From the IMG/VR virus record IMGVR_UViG_3300032050_000635, positions 1-28,339 of that record: a stretch of 28,339 nt of DNA. One strand, given 5' to 3'. Below are positions 13,261-26,329 of the stretch, piece after piece. The position numbers and the translations under genes were made by a program. Within the stretch, counting starts at the first letter, position 1, and the number at the start of each line of letters is the position of its first letter. The notes beneath the pieces were generated by a model. The model searched no databases. It worked only from the letters and a program-made list of their open reading frames with translations, and had not been told where the DNA came from. The DNA is from a virus.

Positions 13261-13884
13261 TTATCCTTGAGCAAATTTCTTAATGGCTGATCGTTGCTTA
13301 CTATCCAACTGTGACCAAAGTGCAGTTTTCCAGTCTGCATCTAGTTCCAGAGAATTGATGTACTCGACTGCATCTCCGACCTTATCCTTATGAATCATCA
13401 TAATGATGTCAGCCGCATAGCTCTTAATCTCATTCTGAGATTGCTCGTCTAACGTATCGAATACGTCTTTGGTGACTGGTTTGGCTGATTTAGGCTCATC
13501 CTTACCAGTCGTAGCGTCTAGTGCATCGTGTTCACAGATCGCTAGAGCCATGACCAACAGATAACGAGTGATATACGTTATCGATGCTCCGAGGTTCTGG
13601 ACTGGATGACAGCCTTTAAGTTCAGCCGTAGCCATAGGGCAAGTGAACTTAGCTATGCCACCTTTCTCAAAGTCGATAACCTGCATTGTCGCTAGAGTAT
13701 CTGTGAACTCTAGGGTATGAGATAAACCGACTTCATTAAAGATAGAGTTGACCGTAGGTAGGAAGTCAGCAAGCTCAAAGTAACGATAGCCAGCAAATTT
13801 ATTGTGACCAGACTTCTTTAGCTCAACGTTCTGTAACTTGACACGAGCTAGTTGAAGTTTCTGGTAAACATTCATCGAGGTCAT
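13261..13884 (-). CDS. ERF-family single-strand annealing protein
   Basis: This 207-residue protein carries the ERF superfamily core in its first 130 residues: YQKLQLAR..L, then SGHNKFAGYRYFELADFLPTVNSIFNE and HPVQNLGASITYITRYLLVMAL. The C-terminal 70 residues are a charged helical extension. P22-type Erf proteins form rings that anneal complementary strands during phage recombination and genome circularisation. AAGGA lies eight bases before ATG 13884; ATG 13875 (MNVYQ) is an alternative start. The adjacent SSB-like gene is its probable partner. Confidence 0.82.
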   Translation of the reverse strand: MTSMNVYQKLQLARVKLQNVELKKSGHNKFAGYRYFELADFLPTVNSIFNEVGLSHTLEFTDTLATMQVIDFEKGGIAKFTCPMATAELKGCHPVQNLGASITYITRYLLVMALAICEHDALDATTGKDEPKSAKPVTKDVFDTLDEQSQNEIKSYAADIIMMIHKDKVGDAVEYINSLELDADWKTALWSQLDSKQRSAIKKFAQG

Positions 13885-14379: not shown

Positions 14380-14711
14380 CTGCCTTCTGCCTCACGGTCT
14401 TTCATTTCCTGATATAGCCAATCACCGCGATCACGTTCACGATCTTCAGCGGATTCGACGTAATCGGGTAGATGCGATTCTTTAACCAGTCGATTAACGA
14501 TACCGACCAAATGTCTACGGACTGCTGCTTGTAGTTTGGCAGCATCAAACTGGAATATGGCACAAGTCTCAAGTAATAGGCAGAGTTCTTCCTCTAACCG
14601 TTCCTCACGCGACTGATTTTGTGTATCCTTGAAAAGGGCAGTCAACTCACCGGGGAAAGCATCTTGTAACGTACCGATGAGGAACTGCTCTAGCTCTTGC
14701 TTGTCGTTCAT
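14376..14711 (-). CDS. Hypothetical protein, first gene of the leftward operon
   Basis: This 111-residue acidic helical protein (EELCLLLETCAIFQFDAAKLQAAVRRHL) ends with DRERDRGDWLYQEMKDREAEGR, charged throughout. No family is recognised. It is the promoter-proximal gene of the leftward operon facing the TTTCTAT operator region, so it is probably expressed earliest. The stop overlaps the next start (ATGA). Confidence 0.6.
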   Translation of the reverse strand: MNDKQELEQFLIGTLQDAFPGELTALFKDTQNQSREERLEEELCLLLETCAIFQFDAAKLQAAVRRHLVGIVNRLVKESHLPDYVESAEDRERDRGDWLYQEMKDREAEGR

Positions 14712-14778
14712 ATTTAATCTCCTAGTGAATACGGCAAAAAGATAGTAAAGGAATACAGCATATTTCTAAACAAAAACA

Positions 14779-14818
14779 TTTCTATAGAGAACTGTATCTC
14801 AATAGAAACTTTCTATAA
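14779..14818. promoter_or_regulatory. Operator-like dyad with TTTCTAT half-sites between divergent operons
   Basis: TTTCTATAGAGA (14779-14790) and TCTCAATAGAAA (14797-14808) form a 12-bp inverted repeat with one mismatch and a 6-base spacer; a third half-site, TTTCTATAA, follows at 14810-14818. It lies between the leftward early operon (start 14711) and rightward genes. TATAAC at 14814-14819 could be a rightward -10, but no good -35 is visible. The Xre-type protein at 12547 is a candidate ligand. Confidence 0.55.
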
Positions 14819-14845
14819 CGAAACCTTACCATCTCTGGCAGAATT

Positions 14846-14995
14846 ATGGCTAAGAAAAAAGACTTACCAAAACAGCAACCTAAGCAACCGCAGTTATTGC
14901 CCAAGACTTCACCGCGAGGACAACCGATTGGACAGCAAAGATTCAAAACCCTTACGTCGCGGGTTAGAACGGTCTGGCTCGGAAACGATTTATAA
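14846..14995 (+). CDS. Small Lys/Gln/Pro-rich ORF, possibly first half of a frameshifted gene
   Basis: ATG 14846 opens a 49-residue frame starting MAKKKDLPKQQPKQPQLLPK, a composition like many small phage proteins. Its last 16 residues look less natural. A zinc-ribbon frame at +1 overlaps from 14928. Either the two are separate overlapping genes or a +1 shift near 14935-14950 joins them into one protein of about 87 residues. The ribosome site is weak. Confidence 0.4.
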   Translation: MAKKKDLPKQQPKQPQLLPKTSPRGQPIGQQRFKTLTSRVRTVWLGNDL

Positions 14996-15101
14996 CTTTG
15001 CAACTAAGTTATGTCCGGGATGTAAGCGAACTAGGTCAGTAGCTCAGTTCGTGAATAACGATTTATGCAGGAGTTGCAACCTGCGTAACGTTAAAGTATG
15101 A
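14928..15101 (+). CDS. Small zinc-ribbon protein
   Basis: This frame encodes 57 residues with two CxxC knuckles, C29-PG-C32 and C47-RS-C50, separated by TRSVAQFVNND, which fits a compact zinc ribbon. TTG 14928 is a plausible start: GAGGA lies seven bases upstream. Alternatively it is the second half of the frame at 14846. The product could be a nucleic-acid-binding or transcription-modulating protein. It ends six bases before the structured RNA at 15107. Confidence 0.5.
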   Translation: MDSKDSKPLRRGLERSGSETIYNFATKLCPGCKRTRSVAQFVNNDLCRSCNLRNVKV

Positions 15102-15106
15102 TTTAC

Positions 15107-15216
15107 ACACGCTTGGCGGCGTGTTTGGGTAAGCCCTAGCCGGGACTCTGCTGGTACCCACCAGTCCGCCAACACTAGACCTGCAGTCTGGTGAGAGTCT
15201 CGCCTAGGGCTTTTTT
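15107..15216 (+). ncRNA. Candidate structured RNA with three-way junction, possible pseudoknot and terminator-like end
   Basis: P0: ACACGC 15107-15112 with GCGTGT 15119-15124. P1: AAGCCCTAG 15131-15139 with CTAGGGCTT 15204-15212, then a U-run (15211-15216). P2: 15141-15149 with 15194-15202, nine pairs including one G-U, stacked on P1 past a C-C mismatch. P3: CTGGT 15151-15155 with ACCAG 15160-15164. P4: 15175-15180 with 15186-15191. The P0 loop plus one base (TTGGCGG, 15113-15119) is complementary to the P3-P4 joint (CCGCCAA, 15166-15172). It resembles an elaborate intrinsic terminator, riboregulator or small RNA. I match it to no known RNA family. Confidence 0.6.
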
Positions 15217-15231
15217 CATTTGAGGAAAGCT

Positions 15232-15447
15232 ATGAAATTAAAGCATACACTCGGAGTTGAGTTTTCAGTTACTGGAGAAGGTTTTATTTGCCTTAAACAA
15301 TTTTCTTTAGAGACACAACGAAATATCTATCTTTACATCACATTGGATCAGTTTCAACAGATGCACACTTGGGTTCATTCGAACGAAGGGTATATCAATG
15401 AAATTTGGAATAATGGGATAGATATTCATACTGAAGAAGAAGTATAG
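15232..15447 (+). CDS. Small hypothetical protein
   Basis: The protein (71 residues from ATG 15232) reads MKLKHTLGVEFSVTGEGF, then ICLKQFSLETQRNIYLYITLDQF and an acidic end HTEEEV. It is predicted mixed alpha/beta without a motif I recognise. GAGGA six bases upstream sets the start. It is the first gene after the structured RNA, so it and the replication genes behind it are the likely targets if that RNA regulates in cis. Confidence 0.55.
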   Translation: MKLKHTLGVEFSVTGEGFICLKQFSLETQRNIYLYITLDQFQQMHTWVHSNEGYINEIWNNGIDIHTEEEV

Positions 15448-15455
15448 GTGGTCAC

Positions 15456-16163
15456 ATGAAAAGACCATCTTTCCAGTTCTATCCTGCTGATTGGTTGCGG
15501 GATACTGCGCTCAGGTCATGTTCTACAGGAGCAAGAGGACTGTGGATCGACATGATCTGCTATATGCATGAAGGTAATCCTTATGGACACCTGAAGGTTG
15601 GCGATAAGGTTATCCTTCCTTCTAACCTTGCTCGTATGGTTGGTGAAACCTTAGAGGTTGTTCAGGGTTGGTTAGATGAACTCAAGGTAGCTGGTGTTTA
15701 CGACATTGGCGATGATGGGGTCATCATATCCAGACGAATGATCCGTGACGAAAACCTAAGAGAAATCAGGGCAAAAGGCGGGAAATTAGGTGGCAATCCT
15801 GCTCTTATGAAAGGCGATAAGGTTAACCTTGACGTTAACCACAAGGTTGAAATTGAGGATAAACAAATTCCAACCCCTTCATCTTCATCTTCATCTTCTA
15901 ATAAAAAAATAATTATTACCTGTCCTGAGAATGTTTCCGAAAGCACATGGAATGATTTTGTTGCGTTAAGGAAAACTAAGAAAGCTCCAGTTACACCTAC
16001 GGTGATTGACGGTATTGCTAAAGAGGCAACAAAACTTGGATGGTCTTTGGAAAGGGCTATGCAAGAGATGTGTACTCAAGGCTGGCAAGGTTTTAAGGCT
16101 GATTGGTTAAAGCCTAAAGACCAGAAATTAACTGAGACAGGCTTTGCAAGGAGACCACTATGA
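15456..16163 (+). CDS. Putative replication initiation / helicase-loading protein (O/DnaT-like)
   Basis: This 235-residue protein has an N-terminal winged-helix-like domain (about 1-115: FQFYPADWLRDTALRSCSTGARGLWIDM...LARMVG...WLDELKVAGV) of the type in phage replication proteins, a linker with seven serines encoded by a hexanucleotide repeat, and a C-terminal DnaT-like helical domain (about 160-220: TWNDFVALRKTKKAPVTPTVI...GWQGFKADWL). Such proteins bind the phage origin and recruit the replicative helicase, here probably that at 17106. AGGTGG lies upstream. Its stop overlaps the zinc-domain gene (ATGA). Confidence 0.7.
   Translation: MKRPSFQFYPADWLRDTALRSCSTGARGLWIDMICYMHEGNPYGHLKVGDKVILPSNLARMVGETLEVVQGWLDELKVAGVYDIGDDGVIISRRMIRDENLREIRAKGGKLGGNPALMKGDKVNLDVNHKVEIEDKQIPTPSSSSSSSNKKIIITCPENVSESTWNDFVALRKTKKAPVTPTVIDGIAKEATKLGWSLERAMQEMCTQGWQGFKADWLKPKDQKLTETGFARRPL
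15879..15899 (+). repeat. (TCATCT)3 hexanucleotide repeat coding for a Ser run
   Basis: Three copies of TCATCT (15879-15896) plus TCT encode seven serines in the linker of the replication protein. Gain or loss of a unit would keep the frame and only change linker length. Confidence 0.8.
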
Positions 16164-17013: not shown

Positions 17014-17164
17014 GTTGATTGAGTTAGGCTTCTCTGAAGTATCACCGGGGTTTTGGGTAGGCAGCGTATTTGCGTTAAATAAACTTTATCAACAAGGGAG
17101 ACAGGATGAGTCTGGAACAGAGAGCAGCGGAGCTAGACGAAGCGAGGAGATTGAGAGTTATTAA
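17000..17164 (+). CDS. Small hypothetical protein bridging nuclease and helicase
   Basis: ATG 17000, with AAAGGA five bases upstream, opens a 54-residue frame (MKESKLIELGFSEVSPGFWVG...LNKLYQQGRQ) that fills the gap between the nuclease stop and helicase start and then overlaps the helicase by 59 bases. Its first 35 residues look like real protein; the tail is Ser/Glu-rich, as expected of a frame shadowing the helicase. It may exist mainly to couple translation to the helicase. Confidence 0.45.
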   Translation: MKESKLIELGFSEVSPGFWVGSVFALNKLYQQGRQDESGTESSGARRSEEIESY

Positions 17165-18107
17165 GAGCGATTCTATTGACGTAGAGAAATATCTCCATGC
17201 TAACGATGTAACCATAAAGGTTAGGCAATGTAGGGATTTCCTAGACGCAATTAAAGAAAACTATCTAAGTACGACTAAAAATACAAAAATCCTACTGCCT
17301 TGGACTAAGACGCATGATTCTTTTGCGTTTAGATCGGGTGAGGTGACTGTTTACGCTGGTTCTAACGGTGGTGGTAAGTCCTTGCTAACCGGACAAATCG
17401 CGCTGCATCTAGTGAAGCAGGGTCAAAAGGTCTGTATCGCATCGTTTGAGATGAAGCCTGTCAAGACGATAGAGAGGATGCTCAGGCAGTTTGCAGGTGA
17501 GTATATTGATGATCCGTTAGCGTCAGACCGAGAGGCTTACATCACGAAACTTCTAGGAAGATTAGAGAAATATACGGCTGACTCTTTATACTTTTACGAT
17601 CAGCAGGGAACTACGTCACCAGACAAAGTTATTGCAATGGCGAGATATTGCGCTATGGAATTAGGTGTTCAGCACGTTTTTATCGACAGCCTGATGAAGT
17701 GTGTGCGAAATGAGGATGACTTTAACGGTCAGAAGTCTTTTATCGACGAGCTAACGGCATTGGCTAGAGACCACAATATCCATATCCACCTAGTCCACCA
17801 TATCCGGAAACAGGCTTCAGACGAGGTAACTCCGAATAAAAACGACCTAAAAGGCTCTGGTTCCATTAGCGATCAGGTTGATAACGTCTTTCTTGTGTGG
17901 CGCAATAAGAAGAAGGAAAACCAGAGGAACCGTGGCGAACAGATAGATGAGTCTCAGGGAGACACTTACCTAATGAACGAGAAACAGAGGAATGGCGAGG
18001 CTCAGGAGTGGTATCAGCTTTGGTATCACCAAGCTAGCCAGCAGTTTGTTGAATCGGCAGGATCAAGACCTATGGACTTTGATAACAATGGAAAATTTAG
18101 AGATTGA
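17106..18107 (+). CDS. DnaB-like replicative helicase (RecA-fold core)
   Basis: This 333-residue protein contains the hexameric helicase core: Walker A AGSNGGGKS at 84-92, the catalytic Glu115 in ASFEMKP, Walker B VFIDS with Asp194, HLVHHIRK at 228-235 and LKGSGSISDQVDNVFLVWRNKK around 248-270. Only about 60 residues precede the core, so the DnaB N-terminal primase-interacting domain is mostly absent, as in compact phage helicases such as the T7 gp4 C-terminal half. It should unwind DNA at the fork, loaded by the O/DnaT-like protein. Confidence 0.88.
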   Translation: MSLEQRAAELDEARRLRVIKSDSIDVEKYLHANDVTIKVRQCRDFLDAIKENYLSTTKNTKILLPWTKTHDSFAFRSGEVTVYAGSNGGGKSLLTGQIALHLVKQGQKVCIASFEMKPVKTIERMLRQFAGEYIDDPLASDREAYITKLLGRLEKYTADSLYFYDQQGTTSPDKVIAMARYCAMELGVQHVFIDSLMKCVRNEDDFNGQKSFIDELTALARDHNIHIHLVHHIRKQASDEVTPNKNDLKGSGSISDQVDNVFLVWRNKKKENQRNRGEQIDESQGDTYLMNEKQRNGEAQEWYQLWYHQASQQFVESAGSRPMDFDNNGKFRD

Positions 18108-25072: not shown

Positions 25073-26329
25073 GTGACTGAGATTGTCATAGATTATGAAC
25101 CGAGGGTTCAGCAGCTAGAGATACATGATGCCATTGAGCAGCATCGTTTTACTGTGGTGGTTGCCCATCGTCGTATGGGAAAGACTGTTAGCGCAATCAA
25201 TCACCTTATCAAGTCCGCTATCGAGTGCGACAAGCCAGACCCACGATTTGCCTACATTGCGCCTACCTACGGACAAGCCAAGCGAGTAGCGTGGGATTAC
25301 CTTCAGAAGTACACCAGACCACTAGGAGCTACCTACAATGTCTCTGAGCTTCGTGCTGATTTCTTTGGGCGTAGGGTTAGTCTTTACGGGTCTGACAATC
25401 CTGACAGCTTGCGTGGTCAGTATTTCGATGGCGTGGTTATCGACGAAGTTGGCGATCAGAATCCGAGAATATGGAACGAGATCGTCAGACCTGCTCTTGC
25501 CGATAGGCTTGGGTGGGCTTGCTTCATTGGTACTCCTAAAGGCAATAACCATTTCGCTGAACTAGCGGACAGAGCCAAGTCTGAGCAAGGCTGGAAGTTC
25601 CTAGAGTTCAAGGCTAGCCAGACGGGAGTCCTGCCCGACTCAGAACTTAAAGCTGCCTATCGTGAGATGGGTGAGGACAGGTATAACCAAGAGTTCGAGT
25701 GTTCCTTTAACGCAGCGGTTGAGGGGTCTTACTATGGCAAGCTCATTAACGATCTTGAGAGCAACGGTCGTATTAGCGACTTTCCTACTGACGGTCTGTG
25801 CCGTAGCTTCGCTGCTTGGGATTTGGGGATCGGTGATTCGACTGCAATTTGGATTGCACAGATTGCCGGGAAAGAGGTCAGACTCATTGATTGCGTAGAG
25901 AATCATGGGGTAGGACTGGACTGGTATGTCGGTTGGTTGAAGGATAACGACTATGGGAAGTTTGACCAAATCCTGCCCCATGACGTACAGGTTAGAGAAC
26001 TCGGAACAGGCAAGAGCCGTAAGGAAGTGCTGGAGGAAGCTGGACTTAGCATCACAGTCGCTCCGAGACTTAGCGTTGCCGACGGGATACAGGCTGTGCG
26101 ACGTATGTTGCCGAGATGCTGGTTCAATCCGAGAACAAAGAACGGACTAGATGCGCTACGGAACTACCGTCGAGAGCATGATGAGCGTAGACAGATATTC
26201 TATGAGAAGCCTCTCCACGATTGGTCATCACACTTTGCAGACTCGTTTAGGTACTTAGCGATTGGTCTTGACGAGACAGATACTTCATGGCAGACATCGT
26301 TGCCAATTTCGACTAAATGGATTGTATAA
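25073..26329 (+). CDS. terL: Terminase large subunit
   Basis: This 418-residue packaging motor has ATPase motifs AHRRMGKT (Walker A, 31-38), VVIDE (Walker B, 121-125) and FIGTPKG (coupling motif, 151-157), then a C-terminal RNase H-like nuclease with Asp250 in AAWDLGIGDST, Asp304 in LPHD and the final acidic His/Asp segment HDWSSHFADSFRY (Asp390). It cuts and pumps concatemeric DNA into procapsids through the portal encoded next. GTG 25073 is the start, one base after the cupin stop. Length is normal for the family. Confidence 0.95.
   Translation: MTEIVIDYEPRVQQLEIHDAIEQHRFTVVVAHRRMGKTVSAINHLIKSAIECDKPDPRFAYIAPTYGQAKRVAWDYLQKYTRPLGATYNVSELRADFFGRRVSLYGSDNPDSLRGQYFDGVVIDEVGDQNPRIWNEIVRPALADRLGWACFIGTPKGNNHFAELADRAKSEQGWKFLEFKASQTGVLPDSELKAAYREMGEDRYNQEFECSFNAAVEGSYYGKLINDLESNGRISDFPTDGLCRSFAAWDLGIGDSTAIWIAQIAGKEVRLIDCVENHGVGLDWYVGWLKDNDYGKFDQILPHDVQVRELGTGKSRKEVLEEAGLSITVAPRLSVADGIQAVRRMLPRCWFNPRTKNGLDALRNYRREHDERRQIFYEKPLHDWSSHFADSFRYLAIGLDETDTSWQTSLPISTKWIV

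Follow-up and report, generated by a model that had tools for sequence, protein, structure and literature searches.

The tR1/nutR region of phage lambda provides a terminator between cro and O, and the PR'-6S RNA-tR' unit makes a short RNA from its promoter until antitermination; both act via the N or Q protein and involve no conserved knotted RNA. Riboswitches of the terminator type that contain pseudoknots, for instance those for preQ1 and ZTP, combine a promoter, a knotted domain, a terminator and a ribosome-binding site, and C4-type antisense RNAs of P4 and P1 control phage early or replication genes. For another phage RNA, int-alpA (RF02996), we know of no function. A report on HK022 describes put RNAs of ~70 nt with two stem-loops, found in two copies per phage, which lie behind the early promoters, need no protein and antiterminate (PMC9378689). 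In a second source, C4 antisense RNA is entered as RF01695 and Polynucleobacter-1 RNA, RF01718, is listed for Burkholderiales and for fresh water or estuary (PMC2864571).

Here we describe a family of phage RNAs of ~100-110 nt that we take, with confidence that stops somewhat short of even, to be conditional terminators acting in cis before early genes, mostly those for replication. The likeness to the lambda units lies in the terminator position and in the short promoter-to-terminator RNA. With the preQ1 and ZTP riboswitches the family shares the order of promoter, knotted domain, terminator and ribosome-binding site, whereas here the terminator stem is the closing helix of the domain itself and the genes behind it are phage genes. 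Like the C4 antisense RNAs, it is a phage RNA ahead of early or replication genes, and like int-alpA it stands upstream of the same replication genes with a -10-like box on its 5' side, although fold and sequence are both different. Similar to HK022 putL and putR (PMC9378689), it would act in cis within early operons of lambdoid phages, from a place at the 5' end of the transcript or close to it; in contrast to them, it is ~105 nt long, has two pseudoknots, occurs in one copy and ends in a terminator-like U-run. The fold and the family appear to be new, while structured phage leader RNAs as such (put, int-alpA) were already known.

The RNA was identified in a stretch of viral DNA of 28,339 nt (hereafter the window), where it lies between a 57-aa and a 71-aa ORF. 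The window looks like a fragment of a tailed-phage genome in which divergent gene blocks meet around 14711-14846; it encodes an Erf-like annealing protein (13261-13884, - strand), a DnaB-like helicase (17106-18107, + strand) and a large terminase (25073-26329, + strand). The features of the locus are as follows.

15074-15102, + strand: sigma-70-like promoter, TTGCAA-17-TATGAT, by consensus match; expected start point ~15107-15109.
15107-15124, + strand: P0 hairpin, stem 15107-15112 / 15119-15124, from predicted fold and family alignment.
15113-15119, + strand: 5' strand of PK1, UUGGCGG, formed by the P0 loop and the first 3' stem base; partner 15166-15172.
15126-15131, + strand: 5' strand of PK2, UGGGUA, in the P0-P1 linker; partner UACCCA at 15155-15160.
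15131-15139, + strand: 5' arm of P1, partner 15204-15212; base 15131 is able to pair in P1 or PK2.
15140.15203, + strand: central C.C mismatch, the sole mismatch in the 19-position P1+P2 helix of the window.
15141-15149, + strand: 5' arm of P2, partner 15194-15202.
15150-15165, + strand: P3 hairpin, stem 15150-15154 / 15161-15165; its loop is the 3' strand of PK2.
15166-15172, + strand: 3' strand of PK1, CCGCCAA, exact complement of 15113-15119.
15173-15193, + strand: P4 hairpin, 8 bp in the window, of variable length in other members.
15194-15212, + strand: 3' arms of P2 and P1, from predicted fold and family alignment.
15211-15216, + strand: U-run, which with P1 gives an intrinsic-terminator-like 3' end.
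15217-15234, + strand: leader with a ribosome-binding-site-like stretch; ATG at 15232-15234.
15232-15447, + strand: first gene behind the RNA, 71 aa.
15456-16163, + strand: second gene, replication initiation O-like / primosomal protein (PHROG 678, E 1.9e-18).

The stretch 15107-15216 (+ strand) has a minimum free energy of -55.2 kcal/mol, compared with -37.5 for shuffles (sd 3.7, z -4.73; none of 200 as good), and P0, P1, P2, P3 and P4 are all present in both the minimum-free-energy and the centroid fold. This bears out the structured RNA that a first-pass annotation, made from the letters of the window, had proposed here, including every helix it named; it had counted these five helices as four, and the P4 it gave as 6 bp is present with 8 bp. 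The near-continuous stack of P1 and P2 that it described is indeed one helix of 19 positions with a single C.C mismatch, and its U-run after P1 is located at 15211-15216. The complementarity it noticed between the P0 loop and the joint of P3 and P4 (15113-15119 with 15166-15172), which we call PK1, is exact and covaries across homologues. PK2 and the sigma-70-like promoter, in turn, are features absent from that reading. The promoter match alone proves nothing, since the 6-kb stretch around it holds eight such matches versus 11.3 expected in shuffles. UUGGCGG or its complement occurs five times in the window, twice inside the RNA, and as many copies were seen in 7 of 100 shuffles. An intrinsic-terminator scan with a loop limit of 8 nt did not list the window element at P1 and the U-run.

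None of the 4227 models of Rfam 15 matched the window at the gathering threshold. A permissive search of 14950-15350 gave four matches, all with E 4.5 or worse, and across 14 loci with diverse members Rfam returned just two tRNAs, elsewhere in the loci. The int-alpA covariance model (RF02996) did not match at the RNA in the window or in these 14 loci, and C4 (RF01695) had no match in the window. RF01718 stayed below its cut-off in all 14 genomes or records scanned (13 phage records including the window, and a Polynucleobacter genome), with one chance-level match of 10.6 bits elsewhere in the Polynucleobacter genome. In the published literature, as covered by titles and the opening text of abstracts in main articles, we found no account of this RNA.

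Homologues were collected in several ways. A 25-nt core matched exactly in nine viral contigs, whose flanks conserve the whole element; one of them, L005, shows no difference from the window here. A BLAST search with this part of the window produced a faint match (E 0.08) in a Manatee Spring phage (MW202462, with MW202544 as its twin), and the version of the element in L013/L019 matched the Manatee Spring phage over 99% of its length with 76% identity (E 8e-8); in this phage the letters of P1, P2 and the linker are largely different and the fold is the same. A looser sequence pattern returned at least 119 stretches, and two patterns that excluded the commonest P3 or PK1 letters returned 40 and 54. 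A covariance model (R1), built from 58 sequences in which the PK1 and P3 letters were fixed by the search pattern, found one match in each of 90 loci searched. A second set of loci was fetched via the proteins encoded downstream, taking the best 80 of 431 and the best 80 of 497 confirmed stretches. R1 found the RNA in 40 of the former (plus one partial) and in 25 of the latter, which are not population frequencies, because the query proteins came from RNA-bearing phages and the best matches alone were used. Another loose pattern gave 86 further loci with six members and one chance match of 15 bits, and a pattern scan of genomes gave six loci with two members (L219, L221). The PK1 and P3 letters of pattern-found members are fixed by construction and their invariance there is thus uninformative; the changes in PK1 and P3 come from the opened patterns, the protein-fetched loci and the genome searches.

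The final set of 157 members corresponds to 160 distinct sequences minus a partial one (L339), one cut by the end of its stretch (L254) and an antisense artefact (L406). It includes the window itself (L001), with which the identical L005 was collapsed, both being tied to the window's phage. Among rejected candidates, L016 was dropped for a long palindrome around the pattern, as judged by eye; MT835622, which shares 22 identical nt, contains no member over the 5 kb tested; and a match of 40 nt inside an aminotransferase gene of a Pararhizobium plasmid scored 10.8 bits (E 0.53) and is a non-member. Matches in PQ867844 and Bacillus phage Moonbeam span 19-23 nt, and sequence searches of plasmids with two queries found no member.

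The comparison of members supports the fold throughout. In an alignment of 97 diverse members (A8, fitted to the model), 39 of the 44 proposed pairs show changes on both sides and 96.0% of the cells hold standard pairs. Covariation reached 0.647 versus 0.172 in shuffled controls and at most 0.106 when partners were slid by one to three columns, both of which are controls that ignore phylogeny. The first-pass annotation had made its case depend on covariation across homologues, and this was found in the 58-sequence as well as the 97-sequence set. Among the 97 members, both-side changes occur in four of five modelled pairs of P0 (95.5% paired), in four of five pairs of P3 (100% paired, with the G.U pair 15150.15165 unchanged in 97/97), in three of four modelled pairs of P4 and in four of six modelled pairs of PK1 (100% paired). 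For PK2 they occur in all five modelled pairs, in the set of 58 and in that of 97 sequences, with 74-94% of the 97 members paired at each pair, and the covariation of PK2 exceeds that of PK1.

Across 156 of the 157 members (one with a longer loop was left out) all 1092 PK1 cells are paired, in the combinations UUGGCGG/CCGCCAA (122), UUGACGG/CCGUCAA (24), UUGGCAG/CUGCCAA (3), UUGGUGG/CCACCAA (3), UUGGUCG/CGACCAA (3) and UGGGGAG/CUCCCCA (1). The PK2 run has a mean of 6.1 in the 157 parsed members; for the 112 distinct linker/loop pairs it is 6.03, whereas dealing the loops out to other sequences gives 3.81 (at most 4.14 in 500 deals). The arms of P1 and P2 are exactly 19+19 nt in 156/157 members; a single mismatch is present at index 9 in 82/156 and at the neighbouring index 10 in 41/156, and 14/156 have none. 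Eight diverse members folded singly gave the same helices, with z from -4.0 to -7.1.

An ordinary intrinsic terminator or insulator, in which the extra helices are decoration, would readily explain P1 with its U-run, and the family does have the stable P1/P2 stem and U-run of such terminators in most members, although it has much more. We consider this very improbable: the both-side changes include both pseudoknots, the arms keep their 19+19 length and the fold is kept in members that lack the U-run. Covariation in PK1 and PK2 refutes the plain terminator as a complete account. Homologues retain the whole fold; the outcome that would have refuted the first-pass annotation, namely homologues with P1 and the U-run as their sole remnant, did not occur, and the RNA forms a family of its own. 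Equally improbable, in our judgment, is a DNA element such as a replication origin or a single-strand structure near the initiator gene, an idea that draws on the frequent position of the RNA beside replication genes. Helix cells contain 245 G.U versus 73 A.C combinations, 62 of the latter at the central mismatch position, so the functional strand is the + strand RNA, and on these counts a DNA-only element was rejected; the promoter and the U-run are fixed to one strand, and some phages have the element ahead of genes for recombination or following a NinB-like gene.

The edges of the RNA are marked in most members. A -10 hexamer lies 4-13 nt 5' of the RNA in 135/156 members (mononucleotide-shuffled mean 44, maximum 57) and in windows further upstream in 19-34 members; it is missing at the expected place in 21/156. 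Because a -35 match (at least 4/6) accompanies 65 of the 135 versus 39 at a control offset, we regard the -35 boxes as weak. The U-run, counted as at least six T among the last two P1 bases and the next eight, is present in 152/157 members; five (L227, L228, L236, L240, L248) keep the fold without it. The genes behind L227, L228 and L236 belong to a cluster in which the longest protein has matches to HNH endonuclease families. In these three members the 3' arm of P1 is able to pair with the bases that follow (GGUCU...AGACC), as if, to judge by these letters, a different 3' hairpin stood in the terminator's stead.

Such a promoter-like 5' edge, a U-run and sharp ends would also befit a trans-acting small RNA, that is, an autonomous promoter-RNA-terminator gene whose shape is read by a host or phage protein (candidates being RNA polymerase, the ribosome, a nuclease or a defence protein) and whose adjacency to genes reflects compact operons. 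We hold this to be possible, if doubtful. The RNA occurs in exactly one copy in 50/50 long phage records (50 of the 68 first listed, some possibly incomplete), as a trans-acting RNA might. Against it, 151/157 members are followed on the same strand, after no more than 50 nt, by the start of an ORF of at least 60 aa, compared with 29.9% of 2829 random places in the same loci. Like a terminator-type riboswitch, the RNA thus occupies the 5' leader of a gene read in its own direction; on its other side, 13/157 members have the start of an opposite-strand ORF at up to 50 nt. With the criteria relaxed to 30 aa and 60 nt and all common start codons admitted, a same-strand ORF follows in 157/157. Coupling of the P1 3' arm to the leader (see below) speaks against a trans RNA as well, and a free RNA gene that ends in a strong terminator would, barring antitermination, interrupt the operon around it. 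Conserved bases of the RNA are mostly paired, and the window holds two exact 11-nt complements of it (G.U excluded) with none longer seen, which also led us to reject an antisense RNA directed at its own phage and sets this RNA apart from the C4 type.

The first ORFs behind the RNA fall into 30 BLASTP clusters, counted with ORFs down to 24 aa, of which 14 have at least two members and 26 a member of at least 60 aa; the co-orientation is therefore not inherited with one gene, and the same diversity fits a trans-acting RNA. PHROG assigned ten downstream proteins to primosomal, replication, replication initiation, ParB-like, RecT-like, RecE-like, HNH, endonuclease and, for two of them, unknown classes. 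No packaging protein is among these, which leaves unsupported the packaging RNA that the first-pass annotation had considered; the anti-defence RNA that it also named likewise gained no support here. Its placement of the RNA upstream of replication genes is supported. In the window an O-like replication protein is encoded second behind the RNA; a Pfam search assigned no family to this product, and Pfam and PHROG searches assigned none to the product of 15235-15447. On the upstream side, ORFs with a similar C-terminal end recur (by eye), and the upstream neighbour in L056 is a P22-type Cro protein.

Two named settings illustrate the range of positions. A prophage-like region of Polynucleobacter sp. 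UK-Kesae-W10 (L221/L231) carries the RNA in the order opposite-strand HTH repressor-like gene, 103-aa ORF, RNA and replication protein. In Pseudomonas phage AH02 (recorded host P. koreensis) the RNA lies at 29520-29625 (87.4 bits, model R2), mid-operon, with gene 50 (NinB-like) on one side and gene 51 on the other, and downstream of Cro-like and helicase-loader genes; given this place behind a NinB-like gene, the RNA is not tied to a replication gene, a further point for a trans-acting RNA. In bacteria the RNA is rare: it was found in Burkholderiales genomes, with 1/186 in the genus of UK-Kesae-W10, 3/398 in its family, 2/399 in its order and 1/369 in its class, the same Polynucleobacter genome being included in all four counts.

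A position ahead of early genes and a complex fold at the expected transcript 5' end would also suit a put-like element of the HK022 kind, whose nascent transcript attaches to RNA polymerase and lets it pass terminators further down the early operon. We think this quite unlikely. HK022 put likewise lies behind early promoters and needs no protein, but it is ~70 nt long with two stem-loops and two copies (PMC9378689), whereas the RNA described here has 100-110 nt and two pseudoknots and is present once per record. In addition, a conserved U-run would stop the very polymerase that had been modified, and Rfam gave no match.

Of the riboregulator and the small RNA that the first-pass annotation suggested, we favour control in cis, by a conditional terminator, because a co-oriented gene start is kept over many different genes and because the 3' arm of P1 is complementary to the leader around the ribosome-binding site. 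The latter complementarity, balanced by class, is 9.99 versus 8.73 in reshuffled pairings, exceeding them in 300/300 draws (152/157 members, phylogeny ignored). In the window, AAGCU at 15227-15231, just before the ATG, complements the P1 3' end at 15208-15212. This partner in the leader comes after the U-run and can thus have no effect ahead of termination; the complementarity may hint at processing or at a second hairpin on the read-through mRNA.

According to the model we propose, transcription would start at P0, and PK2 and PK1 would form before RNA polymerase has left the element. The P2/P1 helix would then close onto the U-run and most transcripts would stop, giving an RNA of ~105 nt, and the genes behind, mostly for replication, with some for RecT/RecE-type recombination or others, would be expressed by read-through. 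Speculatively, the knot could be coupled to the terminator through PK2, which links the 5' foot of P1 with the loop of P3, so that the state of the knot would set read-through; candidates for setting that state are the speed of folding, RNA polymerase and a factor from phage or host. Because the helix length is fixed (19+19) and PK2 makes this tie, a closed ring is suggested. A coarse rigid-body model in which the stem is straight over 19 bp is incompatible with full PK2 unless about three bases of the P1 foot open, and in the same model a bend of ~90-130 degrees at the mismatch permits stem and PK2 together. The modelled geometry is a hint and does not amount to evidence for a switch, since a hinge at the mismatch removes the conflict between stem and PK2.

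Several observations count against a conditional terminator acting in cis. One copy per phage and very different downstream genes fit a trans-acting RNA equally well, the RNA of AH02 lies mid-operon and not before a replication gene, and the U-run is absent in 5/157 members, the -10 box in 21/156, with weak -35 boxes. Moreover, the knot is left unexplained, as the P1/P2 stem is stable enough to terminate without pseudoknots.

A stronger form of the proposal, which we consider rather unlikely, is a terminator held under tension by its pseudoknots: a closed-ring RNA of 105 nt that alone times the early genes, with unrelated RNAs, int-alpA and others, doing the same job at the same place in sister phages. 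Here, two interleaved pseudoknots and a length-locked, hinged helix of 19 bp would open and close the foot of their own terminator. If true, this would constitute a new class of mechanism. The present data add a family of structured phage RNAs in which two pseudoknots are supported by covariation, and Pseudomonas phage AH02 and Polynucleobacter sp. UK-Kesae-W10 offer named settings in which its role is testable.

The place held by this RNA is shared. Among the 160 protein-fetched loci, 94 had no match to the RNA. In 48 of these 94, a pattern of our own, used without a shuffled control, found an int-alpA-like element 36-580 nt before the gene; 41 were blank to both patterns, four had too little sequence and one carried a third kind of hairpin with terminator. 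The Rfam int-alpA model scored over its cut-off in 2/12 scanned loci and below it in four of eight rescanned. Together, the 48 loci and these Rfam calls indicate that at least two unrelated RNAs occupy the same place, which makes the role of early-operon RNAs for phages directly testable. Among the 50 records with the RNA, an int-alpA match lies elsewhere in four, over the cut-off in two.

The int-alpA-like RNAs precede the same replication genes as the new RNA does, and many have a -10-like box immediately on their 5' side (for example L335, L338, L341, L366, L371, L376, L378 and L391, and further L402-L405, L407-L419, L422-L426 and L431-L434). Judged from these loci, the int-alpA family is probably wider than the Rfam model and linked to early operons. 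A third apparent RNA with a long 5' hairpin precedes a replication gene in L351 (~2140-2245) and L427 (~2200-2325). Inspected by eye, its hairpin loop (GUACGAG or GUACUAG) complements the interior of the terminator hairpin that follows (CUCGUAC or CUAGUAC); the two could form a kissing pseudoknot, and the letters of the two loci differ by a compensating change.
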